This document shows, in pieces, positions 2,907-10,716 of a stretch of DNA of 20,351 bases. Within the stretch, counting starts at the first letter, position 1, and each line of letters starts with the position of its first letter. The stretch spans positions 22,911 to 43,261 of the forward strand of contig PATE01000011.1 of assembly GCA_002712305.1 (NCBI GenBank). Direction: 5' to 3'. This DNA comes from Gemmatimonadota bacterium (GTDB taxonomy: Bacteria; Latescibacterota; UBA2968; UBA8231). Under the pieces are notes generated by a model. It was given only the letters and a program-made list of their open reading frames with translations. It searched no databases and was not told where the DNA came from. The position numbers were made by a program, and so were the translations under genes.

Positions 2907-4661
2907 TTGCGGCACAGCAAGTTACCTGCGAATCTGGCCGATGGTGAGTTCCGGCGATGGATGATCACGATGTTTGCCGTCGTCGTCTGTCAGCAACCGG
3001 CCCTCGCCAATCCCGAGACCTGGGACGCCGACGATCTCATTGCGGGGCAGAAGGGTGTCGGCTATTGCGTACTGCAAGGCACGCAGCTCGACTCCTTCGA
3101 AGTTGAAATTCTGGGCGTCCAGCACGATGTAATACAGCCCGGTCGTGACCTGATTCTCGCTAGACTCTCCGGCGCAAATCTGGAAGAGACGGGACTGTTC
3201 CATGGCATGAGTGGGAGTCCGGTCTTCGTGGAGGGTATGCTCGTGGGTGCTGTCGCTCACGGATGGACCTTTTCCATGGAGCCGATCTGTGGGATTACGC
3301 CCATCCGGGAAATGTTGGACTTGCTCGAACAAGATTTGTCGGGCCCCAACGAGTATCCGATGGCCGCCACTCCGCCCGTGGGCACTCTCCATCGTATTGA
3401 GCCGTTGCCATTACCCGTCTGGGTGAGCGGGGCGGGCCGGGGTGTCGAAGCCTTCCTCGCAGATGTGCTTGAACCGATGGGAATGATTCCCGTGACGGGC
3501 CTGGGTGCGTCGGCAAGTACGACAAATCCGCCTGGCGATCTGAAACCCGGCAGCTCAGTGGGCGTGCAGATGGTGCGCGGCGACATGTCGGTGTCGGCGA
3601 TTGGCACGGTGACGTGGATTGAGGGGGATCGCGTATTGGCCTTTGGTCACCCCTATCTCAACGTGGGTGCCGTCGACATGCCCATGACTCGCACGGTCGT
3701 TCACGGCGTATTGCCTAGCCAGTACTCTTCCTTCGTCCTGGGCTCCACTGGAGAAACGATTGGTGCCCTGCGTCAGGATCGATCCGTGGGTGTCGCTGGT
3801 TTGCTTGGCGAAGAAGCCTGGATGTTGCCTGTCGCCGTGACGGTGGATGGTCCCTCGGGTACACGAACGCTGAAGACTGAGGTGCTCGATCACAGTCTGC
3901 TGTCCAGTTCTCTTGCACAGATCGTGGTGTTCAGTGCGCTGGAGTCGGCGGAGAGACTGCTCGGACTCGCCAGCCTTGATGTTCAGCTTCTCGTGACCTT
4001 GAGCGACGGCCGCGAGGTGATTTGGAACCAGGTGTTCAGCGGACTCCATGCTCCCCTGTTTGCGGCCCGGGGTGTGGGTGGCCCCATCGCCAGCCTGGTC
4101 TGGTCGGGTTTGCAGGACGTTCGTCTCGAGCGGGTCGACGTTCATATCGACGTGCGCGATGATGTCCGTGTGGCACGAATCGCTTCGGTACGTCATGAAC
4201 CACAACAACCCCGGGCGGGACGGCCCCTCACGCTGCAGATCGAACTGGCGCCGGTACAGGCTCCGCGACAGCAGTTGGACATCGACGTGATCTTGCCTGC
4301 ATCGGCTCGGGGACTCCCCGTTCAGATTCAGCTGGGTAGCGGATCGGCGGCGGTGTCCTGGGGTGCGCAACGACAGGATGAGTTGCCACCGCGAACGAGC
4401 GACGAACTGCTGCGCCGCCTCGAGCGACCGCGGCGTGATGACGAGTTGGTGATCGAGATTGTCGCCGACGCGCCAGGACTCTCCGTCGGCGGGCAGTCCA
4501 TGCCGTCGCTGCCTGCGTCGGTGGGTCGCTGGCTTCAGCAGACCCCCTCTGTCGGTCACGTGGGACGGGTATCGGGACGAGTGCTTCACACGCAACGAAT
4601 GCGCGTGCCTTACGTGCTGGAGAATGAGCAGGTGATCGATCTGGGGAGTCTCGACCGATGA
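2907..4661 (+). CDS. Secreted SpoIVB/S55-type serine peptidase family protein
   Basis: This is a 584-aa exported protein. An N-terminal segment with two arginines and a hydrophobic stretch ending PALA-NP (residues 16-36) looks like a signal peptide. The S55 signature GMSGSPV (Ser102 as predicted nucleophile) is followed by VEGMLVGAVAHGW and GITPI. Further on, GDRVLAFGHPYLNVGAVDMP (His248) resembles the ALGH segment around the catalytic His of B. subtilis SpoIVB, and an IGALRQDR segment follows. The order is Ser before His, the reverse of SpoIVB. The C-terminal ~200 residues look like beta-rich domains without a motif I recognise. The start is TTG 2907, with GAGAG 8 nt upstream, because it supplies the charged n-region; ATG 2961 would leave an uncharged one. 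It ends in an ATGA overlap with the propeller gene. The peptidase target is unknown, and activity is inferred only from the motifs. Confidence 0.8.
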   Translation: MRHSKLPANLADGEFRRWMITMFAVVVCQQPALANPETWDADDLIAGQKGVGYCVLQGTQLDSFEVEILGVQHDVIQPGRDLILARLSGANLEETGLFHGMSGSPVFVEGMLVGAVAHGWTFSMEPICGITPIREMLDLLEQDLSGPNEYPMAATPPVGTLHRIEPLPLPVWVSGAGRGVEAFLADVLEPMGMIPVTGLGASASTTNPPGDLKPGSSVGVQMVRGDMSVSAIGTVTWIEGDRVLAFGHPYLNVGAVDMPMTRTVVHGVLPSQYSSFVLGSTGETIGALRQDRSVGVAGLLGEEAWMLPVAVTVDGPSGTRTLKTEVLDHSLLSSSLAQIVVFSALESAERLLGLASLDVQLLVTLSDGREVIWNQVFSGLHAPLFAARGVGGPIASLVWSGLQDVRLERVDVHIDVRDDVRVARIASVRHEPQQPRAGRPLTLQIELAPVQAPRQQLDIDVILPASARGLPVQIQLGSGSAAVSWGAQRQDELPPRTSDELLRRLERPRRDDELVIEIVADAPGLSVGGQSMPSLPASVGRWLQQTPSVGHVGRVSGRVLHTQRMRVPYVLENEQVIDLGSLDR

Positions 4662-6649
4662 AGCGATGGCTTCTGTTCATCGTCTGCATGGTTGCCGCCG
4701 CACAAGCCGTTGAACCGGTCACCGTCCATCACGGGCGGTTGCCCGACTATATCGGCGGCAAGGGTGAGGGCGTCGCCCTTCAGGCAGATGGTCGACTGAC
4801 CCTCGCTGCGCGGCTGGTTCCGGTCATCGACCTGGCCGCTGAACGAATCTGGTCCATGACGAGTGATGGGAAACGCCTGGTGGTGGGAACAGGCGACGAA
4901 GGCACCGTCCATGTCGTCGAGGGTGACCGATCCGTCGATCACTTCGACGTACCCCAGGGAGCACCCATTGCACTGGGTGTGGGTTCCAGTGGTCTCTACA
5001 TCGGCGCGGGGCCGCGTGGACGACTGTTGCGGCGTGGCCCCGATGGAAGCACGGAAGAACTGGTTGTTACGCAGAGCCAATACATATGGGATGTAGCCAT
5101 CGACGGAAACGGGGTCTTGCTCGGCTGTGGCGCCGATGCACAAGTCCTGCGATGGTCACGAGATGGCACGGTAGACACCCTCCTCAACGCGACCAACGAC
5201 GGCCATGTACGCGTGCTGGCGCGACGCGGGCAGCAATGGCTGGCCGGCACGGCCGTGAGCGAAGGAAGCCAGGACAGCGAAGGCCGGGGACGCGTCTACG
5301 AACTGGGGCAGAACGGTGGTCGCCTGCTTTTGGAAACCACCTACGAGGAGGTGTCCGCCATGGCGAGTATGGGAGATGCCGTCTTCATCGCGGCCATGAC
5401 GGTTCCCTCCACAGGCACACCGACAGTCGCACTACTGCGGCTCAATGCGGATGGTGCCAGTTATCCCGTGTGGCACGGCACGGGGATCTGGGCAGGCCTT
5501 GTTCGGGACGGTGACGATCTGCTCGCTGTCACTCGCGAACCGACACGCGTCCTACGCTGGGCGGCAGACGGACAGACGGGCGCGGTTTTAGCCCGGTCTG
5601 ACTCGGTGGTCCCGGGCACGATCGCCTTCACCGATGGCACCCTCATTCTGGCTGACGCGCACTCTGGGCGATTGTGGAAACTGGACCGTCGTCGCGCCGA
5701 CGAAGGACACTTCGATTCAGCCGTACACGACGCGGGAAGTGTCGCTACCTGGGGCAGACTCTCTTGGAAGGGGGAGGGCAACGTTGAAGTCCTGACACGA
5801 TCTGGAAACAGTGTCGAACCGGATGAGACGTGGAGTGTATGGTCCGCCGTGCAGAAGGATGAGACCATCCGCAGTCCGAGCGCGCGATATCTGCAGTATC
5901 GAATACGCCTCGAAGCGGGCGGCGATTCAACGCCGTCGGTTGATCGAATCGTCTTCAGCCTCCGTCAGGCCAACCTCCCACCGCGTATCGAGGATGTGGT
6001 CACCTTTCCCTATCGAGGTGGGCCCGGTGCTCTACAGAATCCAGATCAAATTCCGCTGCCAGGCCAGCACCGCAACAATGGGAATGGACTGCCACAGCGT
6101 AAGAGCCTGCGGGTTTTGCGTTGGAAAGCGGACGATCCGAATGGCGATCCTCTGCTCATCGACATCTATCTGCGAGGCGATGGGCAGTCCCACTGGAAGT
6201 TGCTGGAAGAGGGCGTCGAGCGAGTGAAGACGGTCGTGTGGGATACGGAAGTGATGCCCGAGGGGACCACGCAGTTGCGACTGGTTGCGCGGGACACCGA
6301 TTCCAACCCCGGGGACACCGCCTTGGAGGATTCCTACATCACGGCCCCCTTCACTATCGACAATACCCCTCCCGTGGTGCAGTTGCGCCTTCGACAGCAG
6401 GGAGATGACACGATGATCGAAGCACAGATCATCGACGGAATCTCCGCGCTTCGCGGTGCTCGATTCAGCCTCGACTACGACGACGAGACGACTCGACTGG
6501 CCGCTGCAGATGGACTGTTCGACACACCGCAGGAACAACTGCGCTTCACCTTGCCCCCGCTTCCGCCTGGAGAACACGTGGTCTCGGTGCAGGCGTGGGA
6601 TGAGCTGGAGAATGTCGGCGTAGGCCAGATTCTGGTGGAGATTCCGTGA
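4658..6649 (+). CDS. Secreted beta-propeller protein with C-terminal Ig/FnIII-like domains, function unknown
   Basis: The protein is 663 aa. Residues 1-17 (MKRWLLFIVCMVAAAQA) form a clear signal peptide. Residues about 50-340 carry repeated blade-like units with the pattern 'G.G..G.v.....DG': GTGDEGTVHVVEG, GAGPRGRLLRRGPDG, GCGADAQVLRWSRDG, REPTRVLRWAADG and DAHSGRLWKLD. Next comes a segment with WSVWS and ARYLQYRIRLE, a pattern often seen in secreted beta-sandwich proteins, then Ig/FnIII-like modules (PPRIEDV; RWKADDPNGDPL; IDNTPPVVQLRL; DELENVG near the end). No catalytic motif is visible, so binding or scaffolding outside the cytoplasm is the likely role. It overlaps the S55 gene (ATGA) and ribD (GTGA), so it is probably translated from the same mRNA. 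GGGGAG upstream of 4658 serves as ribosome binding site. I do not recognise a named family. Confidence 0.8.
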   Translation: MKRWLLFIVCMVAAAQAVEPVTVHHGRLPDYIGGKGEGVALQADGRLTLAARLVPVIDLAAERIWSMTSDGKRLVVGTGDEGTVHVVEGDRSVDHFDVPQGAPIALGVGSSGLYIGAGPRGRLLRRGPDGSTEELVVTQSQYIWDVAIDGNGVLLGCGADAQVLRWSRDGTVDTLLNATNDGHVRVLARRGQQWLAGTAVSEGSQDSEGRGRVYELGQNGGRLLLETTYEEVSAMASMGDAVFIAAMTVPSTGTPTVALLRLNADGASYPVWHGTGIWAGLVRDGDDLLAVTREPTRVLRWAADGQTGAVLARSDSVVPGTIAFTDGTLILADAHSGRLWKLDRRRADEGHFDSAVHDAGSVATWGRLSWKGEGNVEVLTRSGNSVEPDETWSVWSAVQKDETIRSPSARYLQYRIRLEAGGDSTPSVDRIVFSLRQANLPPRIEDVVTFPYRGGPGALQNPDQIPLPGQHRNNGNGLPQRKSLRVLRWKADDPNGDPLLIDIYLRGDGQSHWKLLEEGVERVKTVVWDTEVMPEGTTQLRLVARDTDSNPGDTALEDSYITAPFTIDNTPPVVQLRLRQQGDDTMIEAQIIDGISALRGARFSLDYDDETTRLAAADGLFDTPQEQLRFTLPPLPPGEHVVSVQAWDELENVGVGQILVEIP

Positions 6650-7776
6650 ACGGATCGGCCAACAGCGATCGTTCCGGTGACGGTCGTTCCAGCGACGACC
6701 GTTTCATGCGGCGAGCCCTGCAATTGGCTGCCCGCGCCCGAGGGCGCGTGAGTCCCAACCCCATCGTCGGCGCCGTCGTCGTGGATCCATCGGGTCAGAT
6801 CGTTGGCGAAGGATATCACCGCAACGTGGGTGGACCACACGCCGAGGCCCATGCCTTGAACGAGGCGGGGGATCGCGCACGAGGCAGCACCGTGTACTGC
6901 ACGCTTGAACCCTGCGCCCATCATGGTCGGACCCCTCCTTGTGCAGAGGCGTTGGTGCGAGCCGGTGTTCGCCGGGTCGTGTGCTCACTGCACGATCCGG
7001 ATACCCATGTCTCAGGCAAGGGCTTTACCATCTTGACGGATGCGGGAATCGACGTCGAGATCGGCCCTGGTGCGGCGACGGCCAGCGCCCAGAACGCGGG
7101 ATATCTGCATCACCGGCAGCACGGTCGGCCACGGGTGTGGCTGAAACTTGCCCAGAGTCTGGATGGGCGTATCGCCACACGGACCGGTGATTCTCGCTGG
7201 ATCACGGGCGAGACGGCTCGTCGACATTCCCACCGCTGGCGTTCGTGGATGGATATGGTCGCCGTGGGGGCCGGTACGGTGACGGCCGACGACCCGGCCC
7301 TGACCGTTCGTCACGTGAAGGGTCAGGATCCCAGAGCCCTCGTGGTAAGTGGTCGCCTCACCTGCGCTCCCCAGGCTCAGGTTTTTGGGCGCGCTGGCAC
7401 TGTCGTGGCCACAGGACACCACAGCCCGGAGCGCACCACCCCCTTCACGGCTCGCGGAACGGAGGTCTGGGCCTTCGATAGCAAAGACGATGAGATCGAC
7501 TTGGCCGAGGTGGTTCAGCAAGCCGGCAGCGCCGGTATCACGAGTTTGCTGATCGAGGGCGGCCAGGGGTTGGCGGCAGCTGCGTTGCGGGCACGGATCG
7601 TCGACGAACTGATGATCTACGTCGCCCCTCGACTGATCGGCGAGGGGCTGTCGGGGATCGGTGAACTGGGTATCGAACGGATCGATGACAGCATCGGACT
7701 GACCCAGGTCACTACTCGTCGGCTGGGCGAGGACCTTTTGGTGACGGGAAAGGTGGAGTCATGTTCACCGGTTTGA
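6646..7776 (+). CDS. ribD: Bifunctional riboflavin deaminase/reductase RibD
   Basis: RibD performs steps two and three of riboflavin synthesis: deamination of the pyrimidine made from GTP, then NADPH-dependent reduction of its ribosyl side chain. The 376-aa product has both domains. The N-terminal zinc deaminase (about 20-165) shows NPIVGAVVV, the zinc His and catalytic Glu in HAEAHAL, and TLEPCAHHGRTPPC with the two zinc cysteines. The C-terminal reductase shows LKLAQSLDGRIA, SRWITGETAR, VGAGTVTADDP and LLIEGG. The GTG at 6646 overlaps the propeller stop (GTGA). An internal ATG at 6706, just before the conserved core, is an alternative that would remove a 20-residue polar leader. It overlaps ribE by 16 nt. 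No FMN riboswitch precedes it, since it directly abuts a coding sequence. Confidence 0.96.
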   Translation: MNGSANSDRSGDGRSSDDRFMRRALQLAARARGRVSPNPIVGAVVVDPSGQIVGEGYHRNVGGPHAEAHALNEAGDRARGSTVYCTLEPCAHHGRTPPCAEALVRAGVRRVVCSLHDPDTHVSGKGFTILTDAGIDVEIGPGAATASAQNAGYLHHRQHGRPRVWLKLAQSLDGRIATRTGDSRWITGETARRHSHRWRSWMDMVAVGAGTVTADDPALTVRHVKGQDPRALVVSGRLTCAPQAQVFGRAGTVVATGHHSPERTTPFTARGTEVWAFDSKDDEIDLAEVVQQAGSAGITSLLIEGGQGLAAAALRARIVDELMIYVAPRLIGEGLSGIGELGIERIDDSIGLTQVTTRRLGEDLLVTGKVESCSPV

Positions 7777-8420
7777 TCGAGGAAGTCGGTCATGTTCGCC
7801 GGGTCGACAAGGTCAGAACAGGTCTGCAGCGGCTCGAGGTCGAAGCCCGGGTGGTGACGGATGGGCTGCAGCTCGGTGATAGTGTCAATATCAACGGTGC
7901 CTGCCAGACGGTCGTGCAGGTGGGGACAGATCGCTTTTCCGTAGAATCTGTGTCGGAGACGTTGCAGCGCACGACCCTTGGATCGCTCCGCGTCGGCGAC
8001 CCGGTCAATCTCGAGCGGGCCCTGCGGGCCAGCGACCGGCTCGGCGGACACATGGTGCTGGGACACGTCGATGGTGTGGGCCATCTGCGCCGTTTGGACG
8101 AGGGGTCCGGACAGTGGACACTGGCCGTGGAACCGCCCACCGAACTGCGCCGCTATGTTGCCGAAAAGGGCTCCATCGCCATCGACGGGATCAGCCTAAC
8201 AGTGGCACAAGTCCTTGCCGACGAAGTCTTTACGGTCGCCATCATTCCACATACATTCAATCACACCCATCTGTCGCACGCGGCCGTCGGCGACCCGGTC
8301 AATCTCGAGGTCGATGTCGTCGCCCGCTACGTGGAACGATTGCTGACCAGCGATCCCAATGCGCCACGAAAGAGGCTGGAGCTCGAAGACCTTCGTCGTC
8401 TGGGCTACAGTGAAGACTGA
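7761..8420 (+). CDS. ribE: Riboflavin synthase alpha subunit
   Basis: This enzyme dismutates two molecules of 6,7-dimethyl-8-ribityllumazine to riboflavin plus the pyrimidine substrate of lumazine synthase. The 219-aa length is typical. The signature MFTGLIEEVG opens the first beta-barrel, which contains INGACQTV; GGHMVLGHVDGVG marks the junction; the second barrel carries IDGISLTVAQV and HTFNHTHL. The first barrel has GACQTV where GVCLTV is usual, so one residue differs in a conserved patch. Both barrels contain VGDPVNLE, encoded by an identical 24-nt stretch (7992-8015 and 8286-8309). It overlaps the end of ribD by 16 nt and is followed at once by a strong terminator hairpin. Confidence 0.97.
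   Translation: MFTGLIEEVGHVRRVDKVRTGLQRLEVEARVVTDGLQLGDSVNINGACQTVVQVGTDRFSVESVSETLQRTTLGSLRVGDPVNLERALRASDRLGGHMVLGHVDGVGHLRRLDEGSGQWTLAVEPPTELRRYVAEKGSIAIDGISLTVAQVLADEVFTVAIIPHTFNHTHLSHAAVGDPVNLEVDVVARYVERLLTSDPNAPRKRLELEDLRRLGYSED
7992..8309 (+). repeat. Two identical 24-nt direct copies within ribE
   Basis: Positions 7992-8015 and 8286-8309 are identical over 24 nt, in the same frame, both encoding VGDPVNLE. RibE is an ancient internal duplication, so the protein motif recurs in many species, but perfect nucleotide identity over 24 nt suggests recent gene conversion or strong codon preference. Confidence 0.85.
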
Positions 8421-8476: not shown

Positions 8477-9742
8477 ATGTCCGATTTTGACCCCATCGAG
8501 GAAGTCATCGAGGCGCTCCAGGCAGGACAGATGATTGTCCTGGTCGATGAGCGTGCTGTCGATGTTGACGGATCCGAGTTGGTCGGCGAGGGAGAACTCA
8601 TGATGATCGCTGAACTGGCCGACCCCAATTCCGTGCATTTTCTCGCCCGCCATGCGGGTGGACCGGTCTATGTGGCGGCCGAAACCAGCCACCTCGAGAA
8701 ACTGGGCCTCGATGCCGCTAGCGCTGGCGCCACGGGCCCGCGCGGTGCCTCGTACATGGTGCCTGTGAATGCGCGTGACGTAGAGGGCACGGGCGTTTCG
8801 GCGCATGAACGAGCGCTGACCATTCGTCGCCTCGCCGATCCCGAAAGCACCCCTCGAGACTTCGTACAGCCCGGACACGTCACTCCCATCGCCGCCCAAT
8901 CAGGGGGTATCCTGAGACGGGCCGGACACACGGAGGGGTCCGTCGACCTCGCCCGACTGGCGACCTTCTCACCGCCTGTGGCGGTCCTCGCGTCGATTCT
9001 AGACGATGACGGAGAGGTCGCCTCGACCCCCTATCTGCTCAACTTTGCAACACGGCACGGTCTCAAGATCGCCACGCTACGTGATCTGATCGCCTATCGC
9101 AGCCGGTCGGAGAAGTTGGTCAATCTGGAGGCTCGGGCACGAATGCCGACACGGCATGGTGAGTTCACCACCTATGCCTATCGATCCCTCGTCGATGGCT
9201 CTCCCTACATCGCGCTGGTGATGGGTGAGGTGGATGATGGTGAGCCGACACTTGTCCGCATGCACTCCTGCTGCGTAACCGGGGATGCCCTCGGGTCGAA
9301 CCTGTGCGACTGTGGTGAACAACTGCAGGCAGCCATGGCGATGATCGCTGCCGAGGGGCGCGGTGTCATCGTCTATATCCAGAGTCACGAAGGGCGCGGT
9401 ATCGGCGTCCTGCACAAACTCAAGGCATACGAACTACAGCAGGAACAGGGGTTGGATACGATTGAAGCCAATCACGCCCTCGGACTGCCTGCCGATAGCC
9501 GCGACTACGGCATCGGTGCTCAGGTTCTGCAGGATCTGGGGCTGCGTGAGCTCCGCCTGCTGACGAACAACCCGCGCAAACGAGTGGGGCTCGACGGCTA
9601 TGGTCTGCGTGTCGTTGAGCAGGTGGCCATCGCCGCCGACCCCAATCCGCACAACATCCGATATCTACGAACCAAACGAGATCGCATGGGTCACTCGACC
9701 CTGCTTGAGGAGGGAGATCGATCCGATGCCCAGAGTGCATGA
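8477..9742 (+). CDS. ribBA: RibBA-type fusion: degenerate DHBP synthase domain plus GTP cyclohydrolase II
   Basis: The protein is 421 aa. The C-terminal half (about 215-405) is a complete GTP cyclohydrolase II, which starts riboflavin synthesis from GTP: zinc cysteines C266, C277 and C279 (CVTGDALGSNLCDCG), HEGRGIG, DTIEANHALGL, DYGIGAQ and LLTNNPRK. The N-terminal half has the 3,4-dihydroxybutanone-4-phosphate synthase fold (GTGVSAHER, QPGHVTP with H134, RRAGHTE with R148/H151). However, the hallmark DDEDRENEGD loop is replaced by a longer stretch ending ELVGEGE, the conserved Cys after RHxxG is not there, and the catalytic Glu of the CEL segment is Ser173. DHBP synthase activity is therefore doubtful. 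ATG 8477 lies 28 nt after the terminator's T-run and has no clear Shine-Dalgarno. It overlaps ribH by 17 nt. Confidence 0.93.
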   Translation: MSDFDPIEEVIEALQAGQMIVLVDERAVDVDGSELVGEGELMMIAELADPNSVHFLARHAGGPVYVAAETSHLEKLGLDAASAGATGPRGASYMVPVNARDVEGTGVSAHERALTIRRLADPESTPRDFVQPGHVTPIAAQSGGILRRAGHTEGSVDLARLATFSPPVAVLASILDDDGEVASTPYLLNFATRHGLKIATLRDLIAYRSRSEKLVNLEARARMPTRHGEFTTYAYRSLVDGSPYIALVMGEVDDGEPTLVRMHSCCVTGDALGSNLCDCGEQLQAAMAMIAAEGRGVIVYIQSHEGRGIGVLHKLKAYELQQEQGLDTIEANHALGLPADSRDYGIGAQVLQDLGLRELRLLTNNPRKRVGLDGYGLRVVEQVAIAADPNPHNIRYLRTKRDRMGHSTLLEEGDRSDAQSA

Positions 9743-10193
9743 GGGCAAGCTCGATGCGTCGAGCCGCCGCTTCGCCATTGTTATCAGCCGCTTCAACAGC
9801 CTCATCACGTCACGTCTTCTCGATGGCGCTCTTGACTGCCTTCGCCGCCACGGTTGTCCAGAAGACAATGTCGAAATCGCCTGGGTGCCGGGTGCCTTCG
9901 AATTGCCCGTCACGGCCAAGCGCCTGGCAGCGACGGGTCGCTTCGATGTCGTGATGTGCCTGGGCGCCATCATTCGAACATCGACTCCCCATTTTGATTT
10001 TGTCGCTGCTGAGGCGGCTCGGGGTATCGCCTCGGTCGGTCTGGACTCGGGAGTACCCGTCACCTTCGGCGTCGTGACCACCGATGATGTGGAGCAAGCC
10101 ATTGAACGGGCTGGCACGCTGTCTGGGAATCGCGGCTGGGACGCTGCGGCCAATGCCATCGAGATGGCCAATCTGCTCGCCGACATGAACTAG
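9726..10193 (+). CDS. ribH: 6,7-dimethyl-8-ribityllumazine synthase
   Basis: RibH condenses 3,4-dihydroxybutanone 4-phosphate with the ribitylaminopyrimidine to give the lumazine used by RibE. The 155-aa length fits, and the family normally forms pentamers or 60-mers. Motifs: SRFNSLIT, WVPGAFELP, GAIIRTSTPHFDFV with the conserved His89, FGVVTTDDVEQAIERAG and NAIEMANL. The usual RG(D/E)T loop reads RTST and the usual GNKG reads GNRG, both conservative enough for activity. ATG 9726 is chosen because the protein alignment begins there; it sits inside the last 17 nt of ribBA, following GAGGGAG. nusB follows after 7 nt. Confidence 0.96.
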   Translation: MPRVHEGKLDASSRRFAIVISRFNSLITSRLLDGALDCLRRHGCPEDNVEIAWVPGAFELPVTAKRLAATGRFDVVMCLGAIIRTSTPHFDFVAAEAARGIASVGLDSGVPVTFGVVTTDDVEQAIERAGTLSGNRGWDAAANAIEMANLLADMN

Positions 10194-10200
10194 GCCCCCG

Positions 10201-10716
10201 TTGACCGACCTGCCCACAGAAGAGTCCTCCACGGCCCCATCCTCACCCCGCCAGCAGCGTTGGGATGACGGCGAGTGGGGGAATGCCGAGCAGGAGAAAA
10301 TCCCGCAGTCTCGTTCCGGCGCACGCCAACTGGCCCTGCGGGCACTGTATTGGGAAAGTGCCAACCCGGGTCAAGTTGGCGAAGCCCTGCAGCAACTCGG
10401 TGAGGCCTGTGGTTTGACGCCCAAATTGCGGACCTTCGCCGAGCAGGTGGCCACGGCGGCTGTAGAGTATCGGTCAGAGCTGGATGACCTGGTCCGTGAC
10501 AATGCCACCAACTGGCACCCCGATCGAATCGCCCGTCTCGACGGATTGATCCTCAGGTTGGGGCTGGCAGAGTTGCTCTATATCGACGATGTGCCGGCGC
10601 GGGTCACAATCCACGAAGCCGTCGAACTGGCCAAGACTTATGGCGGGGGGCAGTCGTATCGGTTCGTTAACGGTCTGCTGGACGCCATCGCCCGGCAGCG
10701 CGATCTCGACGTTTGA
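10201..10716 (+). CDS. nusB: Transcription antitermination/termination factor NusB
   Basis: NusB binds boxA RNA with NusE (S10) in antitermination complexes, mainly on rRNA operons. The 171-aa product has the all-helical NusB core from about residue 37 (SGARQLALRALY) to the end. Its C-terminal signature is clear: RIARLDGLILRLGLAELLY, then DVPARVTIHEAVELAKTYGG and YRFVNGLLDAIARQ. The first 35 or so residues are a polar, proline/serine-rich extension not usual in NusB. I see no in-frame ATG or GTG before the core, so TTG 10201 is the likely start (an in-frame CTG is at 10210). The neighbour order ribH-nusB is common in bacteria. No terminator with a T-run follows it closely. Confidence 0.95.
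   Translation: MTDLPTEESSTAPSSPRQQRWDDGEWGNAEQEKIPQSRSGARQLALRALYWESANPGQVGEALQQLGEACGLTPKLRTFAEQVATAAVEYRSELDDLVRDNATNWHPDRIARLDGLILRLGLAELLYIDDVPARVTIHEAVELAKTYGGGQSYRFVNGLLDAIARQRDLDV

Follow-up and report, generated by a model that had tools for sequence, protein, structure and literature searches.

The RibBA protein encoded in the riboflavin operon of a Latescibacterota genome has lost most catalytic residues of its DHBP synthase (DHBPS) half and is most likely, judged from its sequence, now a GTP cyclohydrolase II (GCHII) only. A RibBA with a lost DHBPS site is a new bacterial variant of the plant RIBA3-like kind. The fuller account that we favour, at somewhat better than even strength, is that RibBA acts as GCHII alone, that ancestral DHBP came from a stand-alone RibB, and that ribB was lost in the genus studied here, where the DHBP source is not recognisable as RibB. 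What is directly observed is which residues are lost and kept, that the genome has a single GCHII, which genomes have ribB and which do not, that the locus is free of ribB, and that the evolutionary rate has changed.

The riboflavin operon and the altered RibBA

The window, meaning the whole stretch of 20,351 nucleotides analysed, lies in a Latescibacterota MAG (G000:C32, 90.9% complete). Its family, f1, comprises 25 genomes (G000–G024, of which G000 is the window's own). The sole congener is G001, and the two RibBA proteins are 92% identical. The closest loci found to the window RibBA are Latescibacterota RibBA; the named relatives are Latescibacterota, part of them labelled Gemmatimonadetes or Gemmatimonadaceae. 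The gene order is ribD-ribE-ribBA-ribH-nusB. Directly 5' of ribD (2907-6649) are genes for a SpoIVB-type S55 peptidase-like protein and then a 663-aa protein without a family over cut-off. No FMN riboswitch was recognised before the riboflavin genes (zero Rfam matches at gathering score, window 1-20351). The features are as follows.

6646..7776, + strand: ribD, deaminase/reductase (Pfam)
7761..8420, + strand: ribE, riboflavin synthase (Pfam)
8477..9742, + strand: ribBA, 421 aa, DHBP synthase-like half fused to GTP cyclohydrolase II (Pfam, NCBIfam)
8498..9097, + strand: DHBPS-like half, catalytic residues lost (Pfam residues 8-207; site table)
8546..8596, + strand: altered acidic loop DERAVDVDGSELVGEGE in place of DDEDRENEGD, with a 7-residue insertion and R37, E38, N39 and D42 lost (alignments)
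8669..8671, + strand: Tyr65 at the Cys67 position of intact enzymes (alignment, site table)
8876..8935, + strand: His136 ... Arg150-x-x-His153-Thr154-Glu155 retained, PGH ... RAGHTE (site table)
8993..8995, + strand: Ser173 at the Glu174 position of intact enzymes, CE[IL] to ASI (alignment, site table)
9131..9625, + strand: GTP cyclohydrolase II half, zinc motif C-x2-G-x7-C-x-C present as CVTGDALGSNLCDC (Pfam, 229.9 bits)
9726..10193, + strand: ribH, lumazine synthase; loop IRG-x-T-x-H (9975-9992) is IRT-S-T-P-H (Thr85), and GNKG is GNRG (Pfam; 75-sequence alignment)
10201..10716, + strand: nusB, last gene of the riboflavin run (Pfam)

The protein has the architecture of a bifunctional RibBA: DHBP_synthase (PF00926) covers residues 8-207 at 190.8 bits, GTP_cyclohydro2 (PF00925) covers residues 219-383 at 229.9 bits, and the gene sits inside a riboflavin operon. 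The residues of a bifunctional RibBA are wanting, as R37, E38, D42, C67 and E174 are all five replaced. It is the sole match to either family genome-wide. The zinc motif, as defined in PMC10366380, is present (CVTGDALGSNLCDC) and, with the family score, marks a GTP cyclohydrolase II. The ribA models are passed (TIGR00505, 218.9 against a cut-off of 205.85); the ribB equivalog TIGR00506 gives 147.0, below its cut-off of 177.45. The preliminary description had called the GCHII half intact, and the score, zinc motif and ribA cut-off agree. It had also reported a longer stretch in place of the DDEDRENEGD loop and the absence of the conserved Cys and of the Glu of CEL. Both points hold: the loop is seven residues longer with R37, E38, N39 and D42 replaced, and Tyr65 and Ser173 occupy the other two positions.

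Residue numbers are those of E. coli RibB, from a reference sequence that we take to be correct and whose extent agrees with PDB 1g57. The window loop reads D24-ERAVDVDGSELVGEGE-L41. The half lacks R37, E38, N39, D42, C67 and E174, and retains D33, E40, S110, H136, R150, H153, T154 and E155. Across 43 intact RibBA and RibB proteins, drawn from further families of Latescibacterota and from other phyla, the lost residues are conserved at 95-98%; 51 columns are at least 90% conserved in this set. In the five f1 genomes that carry no stand-alone ribB, the residues lost are D34, R37, E38, N39, D42, M58, C67, T93, F95, G104, F138, L140, E174, M182 and R184, and D33, E40, G64, T107, G108, S110, R114, H136, R150, H153, T154 and E155 are kept. 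Judged by DHBPS structures, metal-site and acid/base residues are probably among those lost, and residues around the sugar phosphate among those kept. Alignment of the loop is ambiguous in that Asp29 or Asp31 of the insertion could fall near the E38 position. Relatives without the insertion (VDECEAVGEGVL) give gap-free replacements of R37 by A, E38 by V, N39 by G and D42 by V. Alignment with RibBA relatives of the same lineage, a check proposed in the preliminary description, finds the degenerate state in 22 of 22 f1 proteins examined (the family has 25 genomes). This uniformity, together with purifying selection, rules out chance or sequencing error as the cause. An AlphaFold model built from nine sequences has a mean pLDDT of 66, too weak for pocket analysis.

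Much the same change is found in f6, a family of another class of Latescibacterota, which has lost R37, E38, N39, M58, C67, T107, F138, P139, V171, E174, I175, M182 and R184. Nine losses are common to f1 (15 lost) and f6 (13 lost), with a hypergeometric P of about 7e-4, a post hoc value over columns that are not independent. By alignment, nearly the same residues were lost independently in f6, and much the same subsite appears to have been given up twice. Further degenerate proteins occur outside f1. L107 and L108 (an uncultured bacterium / 'Erysipelotrichaceae' MAG) encode RibBA with a degenerate DHBPS loop (DDESADSKAHLIL), His at Cys67 and Glu174 kept. L124, L125 and L126 (Rhodospirillales/Acetobacteraceae) encode distant PF00926-like proteins whose catalytic residues are mostly replaced.

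Stand-alone ribB genes in Latescibacterota

The PF00926 search covered 64 Latescibacterota genomes. Wherever it matched in families f2-f5 and f7-f10, it matched once per genome, and all canonical residues are present in the representatives aligned. Among the f1 genomes, 20 of 25 carry a second PF00926 gene of ~200 aa, including the single-contig genomes G018 and G024; the second copy of G019 is fragmentary. The 17 stand-alone proteins aligned have R37, E38, E40, D42, H136, R150, H153 and E174, with His or Leu for Cys67. A missing Cys67 is therefore weak evidence when taken alone. In a tree built with a limited choice of outgroups, the stand-alone genes group as a single clade. In clades g3, g4, g6 and g7, ribB lies in a conserved stretch, rarA/spoU/epimerase/EPSP synthase/MR_MLE - ribB - dsbD; in two g5 genomes (G005, G009) it is at another place, with a sulfatase gene and a DUF362 gene as neighbours. 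The g6 and g7 copies are directly 3' of an MR_MLE enolase-superfamily gene (L043:1937-3753 and equivalents), an odd neighbour for ribB.

Genome-wide searches found no second PF00926 gene in the window's genome, its congener or three close relatives (G002, G012, G015). A diverged second RibB was sought with a stand-alone-RibB profile at E up to 10 and rejected: the profile gave RibBA alone in G000, G012 and G015, while in G001 and G002 it added nothing to RibBA but insignificant fragments. The dsbD locus has no ribB in any of the five genomes, and the stretch is assembled in all of them. Between MR_MLE or EPSP synthase and dsbD is a 508-aa sodium:solute symporter (SSF) in the window's genome (L135:6740-8266), intact also in G001 and G012; the same slot holds decayed SSF remains in G002 and 54 bp in G015. 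At the second home of ribB, of the g5 type, the assemblies of G001 and G015 include the DUF362 neighbour and other flanking genes but no ribB. The syntenic loci are contiguous, and an assembly gap is rejected as the cause of the absence. The operon tree, quickly built and weak at some forks, places g4 as sister to (g2,(g1,g5)). Under the simplest history, ribB therefore stood beside dsbD originally and disappeared along that branch.

It is improbable that the window's species has a stand-alone ribB that was missed because it moved to a poorly assembled region. The five ribB-less f1 genomes are MAGs of 85-96% estimated completeness (G000, 90.9%), in which a relocated ribB could be missed, and the g5 genomes show that the gene can move. 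Against this, the chance of missing it in all five, calculated from the completeness values with independence assumed, is ~5e-6. The ribB-free dsbD loci and, in G001 and G015, the second-place flanks also speak against it. So do the four f6 genomes (80-97% complete), in which the PF00926 search gave one degenerate copy each and no other ribB.

The preliminary description had looked to another source of the four-carbon unit, or a changed mechanism, and proposed a search for a separate ribB in the rest of the genome. A separate gene in 20 of 25 f1 genomes bears out another source for most of the family, but the search found none in the window's genome, where the ribB locus is assembled and empty of ribB. 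DHBP synthase is present in 14 of 14 bacterial and archaeal control genomes searched, so it is unusual for a lineage to lack it and retain the other steps of the riboflavin pathway. Flavin salvage through RibU is rejected for G000, where weak PF12822 matches are read as BioY-like (after accD) and ThiT-like. A flavin importer search found no PnuX-type PF04973 in G000, the other four ribB-less f1 genomes or f6.

Constraint on the DHBPS half and the supply of DHBP

Evolutionary rate was measured on a fixed tree as the ratio of the DHBPS-half length to the mean for RibH, RibE and RibD. The relative rate is 0.38 in the intact families f2+f3+f4; in degenerate clades it is 0.75 (f6), 0.74 (g4), 1.02 (g6+g7) and 0.78 (g1+g2+g5). 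The GCHII half stays at 0.34-0.46. For g1 alone (two sequences) the values are 0.58 for the DHBPS half and 0.16 for the GCHII half. Constraint on the DHBPS half is relaxed about two-fold, not removed, and to much the same degree whether a second ribB is present or not. The half is under purifying selection, with dN/dS below about 0.15 (YN00; pairs giving values, window-G001 not among these). Selection re-tightened after the loss of ribB is rejected, as neither rates nor core retention differ from those in ribB-keeping lineages.

The main rival to the GCHII-only reading holds that the altered half goes on making DHBP through a rebuilt metal/acid site, with acids of the insertion serving for E38 and D42 and another group for E174 and C67. 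We consider it rather unlikely. It would spare an unknown enzyme in nine genomes (five f1, four f6), which have the rest of the pathway and no intact DHBPS and are most easily explained by a working altered half. The purifying selection, the retained D33 and E40 and the equal core retention with and without stand-alone ribB also weigh against a GCHII-only protein. The phosphate-side H136, R150, H153 and T154 are all kept in lineages lacking the extra gene. The inserted loop, with its conserved pattern D-E-R-x-x-D-V-D-G, is nearly constant across g1/g2/g5, and the overlapping losses in two families may mean a change of chemistry, not decay. Yet metal-site, Cys and Glu residues are gone together, and the half's rate of evolution is double that seen in intact families, whether or not a second ribB is present. 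In part of g7, moreover, the inserted loop is absent again with identical core residues missing, and plant RIBA3, in which essential DHBPS residues are exchanged, has no measurable DHBPS activity (PMC3509567).

The lumazine synthase is also altered, a feature absent from the preliminary description, as is the retention of phosphate-side pocket residues in RibBA. The loop IRG-x-T-x-H of RibH lies where the phosphate of DHBP binds. Its glycine is invariant in all other RibH of a 75-sequence alignment and is Ser or Thr in every f1 RibH aligned. GNKG is GNRG in nearly all f1 RibH and GNYG in one, with one RibH copy per f1 genome; f6 RibH has GNRG and keeps the loop glycine. Such a loop might aid a four-carbon unit that is formed non-enzymatically or drawn from another metabolite (e.g. 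diacetyl + 5-amino-6-ribitylaminouracil), and a review notes non-enzymatic DMRL formation from 5-A-RU and DHBP (PMC12855090). This is the least probable alternative: ribB-bearing f1 genomes have the same change and f6 keeps the glycine, so that the change does not track DHBPS loss, and direct evidence for diacetyl use was not found. Being independent of ribB presence, the glycine change offers a lead but does not prove that another substrate is used.

The GCHII-only reading suggests the following mechanism. (i) The DHBPS half would no longer convert ribulose-5-phosphate to DHBP in the canonical way, its activity presumably lost with the residues. (ii) It would persist as a folded pseudo-enzyme domain that keeps the sugar-phosphate side of the pocket. 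(iii) This domain may act as a dimer scaffold and possibly, if it binds the ligand, as a ribulose-5-phosphate sensor for the GCHII half. (iv) The f1 ancestor would have obtained DHBP from a separate stand-alone RibB beside dsbD, a gene that most members retain. (v) On the branch to the window's genus, ribB would have been lost from the locus, with a sodium:solute symporter gene in its place. (vi) The otherwise complete pathway (RibD, RibE, RibH) of this genus would be fed by a putative DHBP source not recognisable as RibB.

A bolder proposal is put forward tentatively, as rather doubtful: the window's genus, its nearest kin and f6 would make riboflavin without any RibB, through an undiscovered non-homologous DHBP synthase or another four-carbon precursor, and the DHBPS half would now be a ribulose-5-phosphate-binding regulatory domain of GCHII. 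An undiscovered synthase is not far-fetched, because Sinorhizobium meliloti without ribBA stays prototrophic (PMC9478397).

Comparison with known systems

A blanket annotation of RibBA as bifunctional would be wrong for whole clades. Should the altered half be active after all, the residues needed for the DHBPS reaction would be redefined. PDB 4i14, deposited as a bifunctional RibBA, is homologous to the window protein over its full length (residues 3-407). The DDEDRENEGD loop, the Cys and the Glu are all present in 4i14 and all missing from the window RibBA. The f1 stand-alone RibB (e.g. L043:3139-3753, L063:2820-3419) is of the same PF00926 family and keeps the acid box, H136, R150, H153 and E174. 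It differs as a separate gene of ~200 aa next to dsbD, with His or Leu for Cys67, and is absent from the window's genus.

In plant RIBA3, GCHII activity is present and DHBPS activity absent, both in vitro and by complementation (PMC3509567). The Arabidopsis protein likewise combines RibBA architecture and a kept GCHII with exchanged DHBPS catalytic residues, and a partner enzyme elsewhere supplies its DHBP (PMC3509567). The likeness to RIBA3 drawn in the preliminary description is supported, since DHBPS catalytic residues are lost and the GCHII half is intact (PMC3509567). A separate DHBP source in the organism is present in 20 of 25 f1 genomes, with none found in G000, G001, G002, G012 and G015. 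The window RibBA may work like RIBA3, a likeness by analogy, not shown descent. Arabidopsis RIBA3 is a eukaryotic plastid isoform beside a bifunctional RIBA1; in contrast, the window protein is the sole RibBA and sole GCHII, is fixed through a bacterial family, and has a seven-residue loop insertion and a partner not found in five genomes.

In S. meliloti, deletion of ribBA leaves a prototroph with no identifiable DHBPS, and an alternative DHBPS has been postulated (the BrbF branch / inferred 'RibB2'; PMC9478397). The BrbF link is uninformative here, as creatininase-family proteins occur in 18 of 18 genomes searched. That family (PF02633) is expanded in f1, with 8-21 copies per genome searched vs 1-3 in f6. 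The S. meliloti wild type has an intact RibBA and its GCHII is also bypassed, whereas the window's genus keeps GCHII and the loss is natural. Lineages of this kind provide natural gene sets in which to seek the alternative DHBP synthase inferred in Sinorhizobium (PMC9478397).
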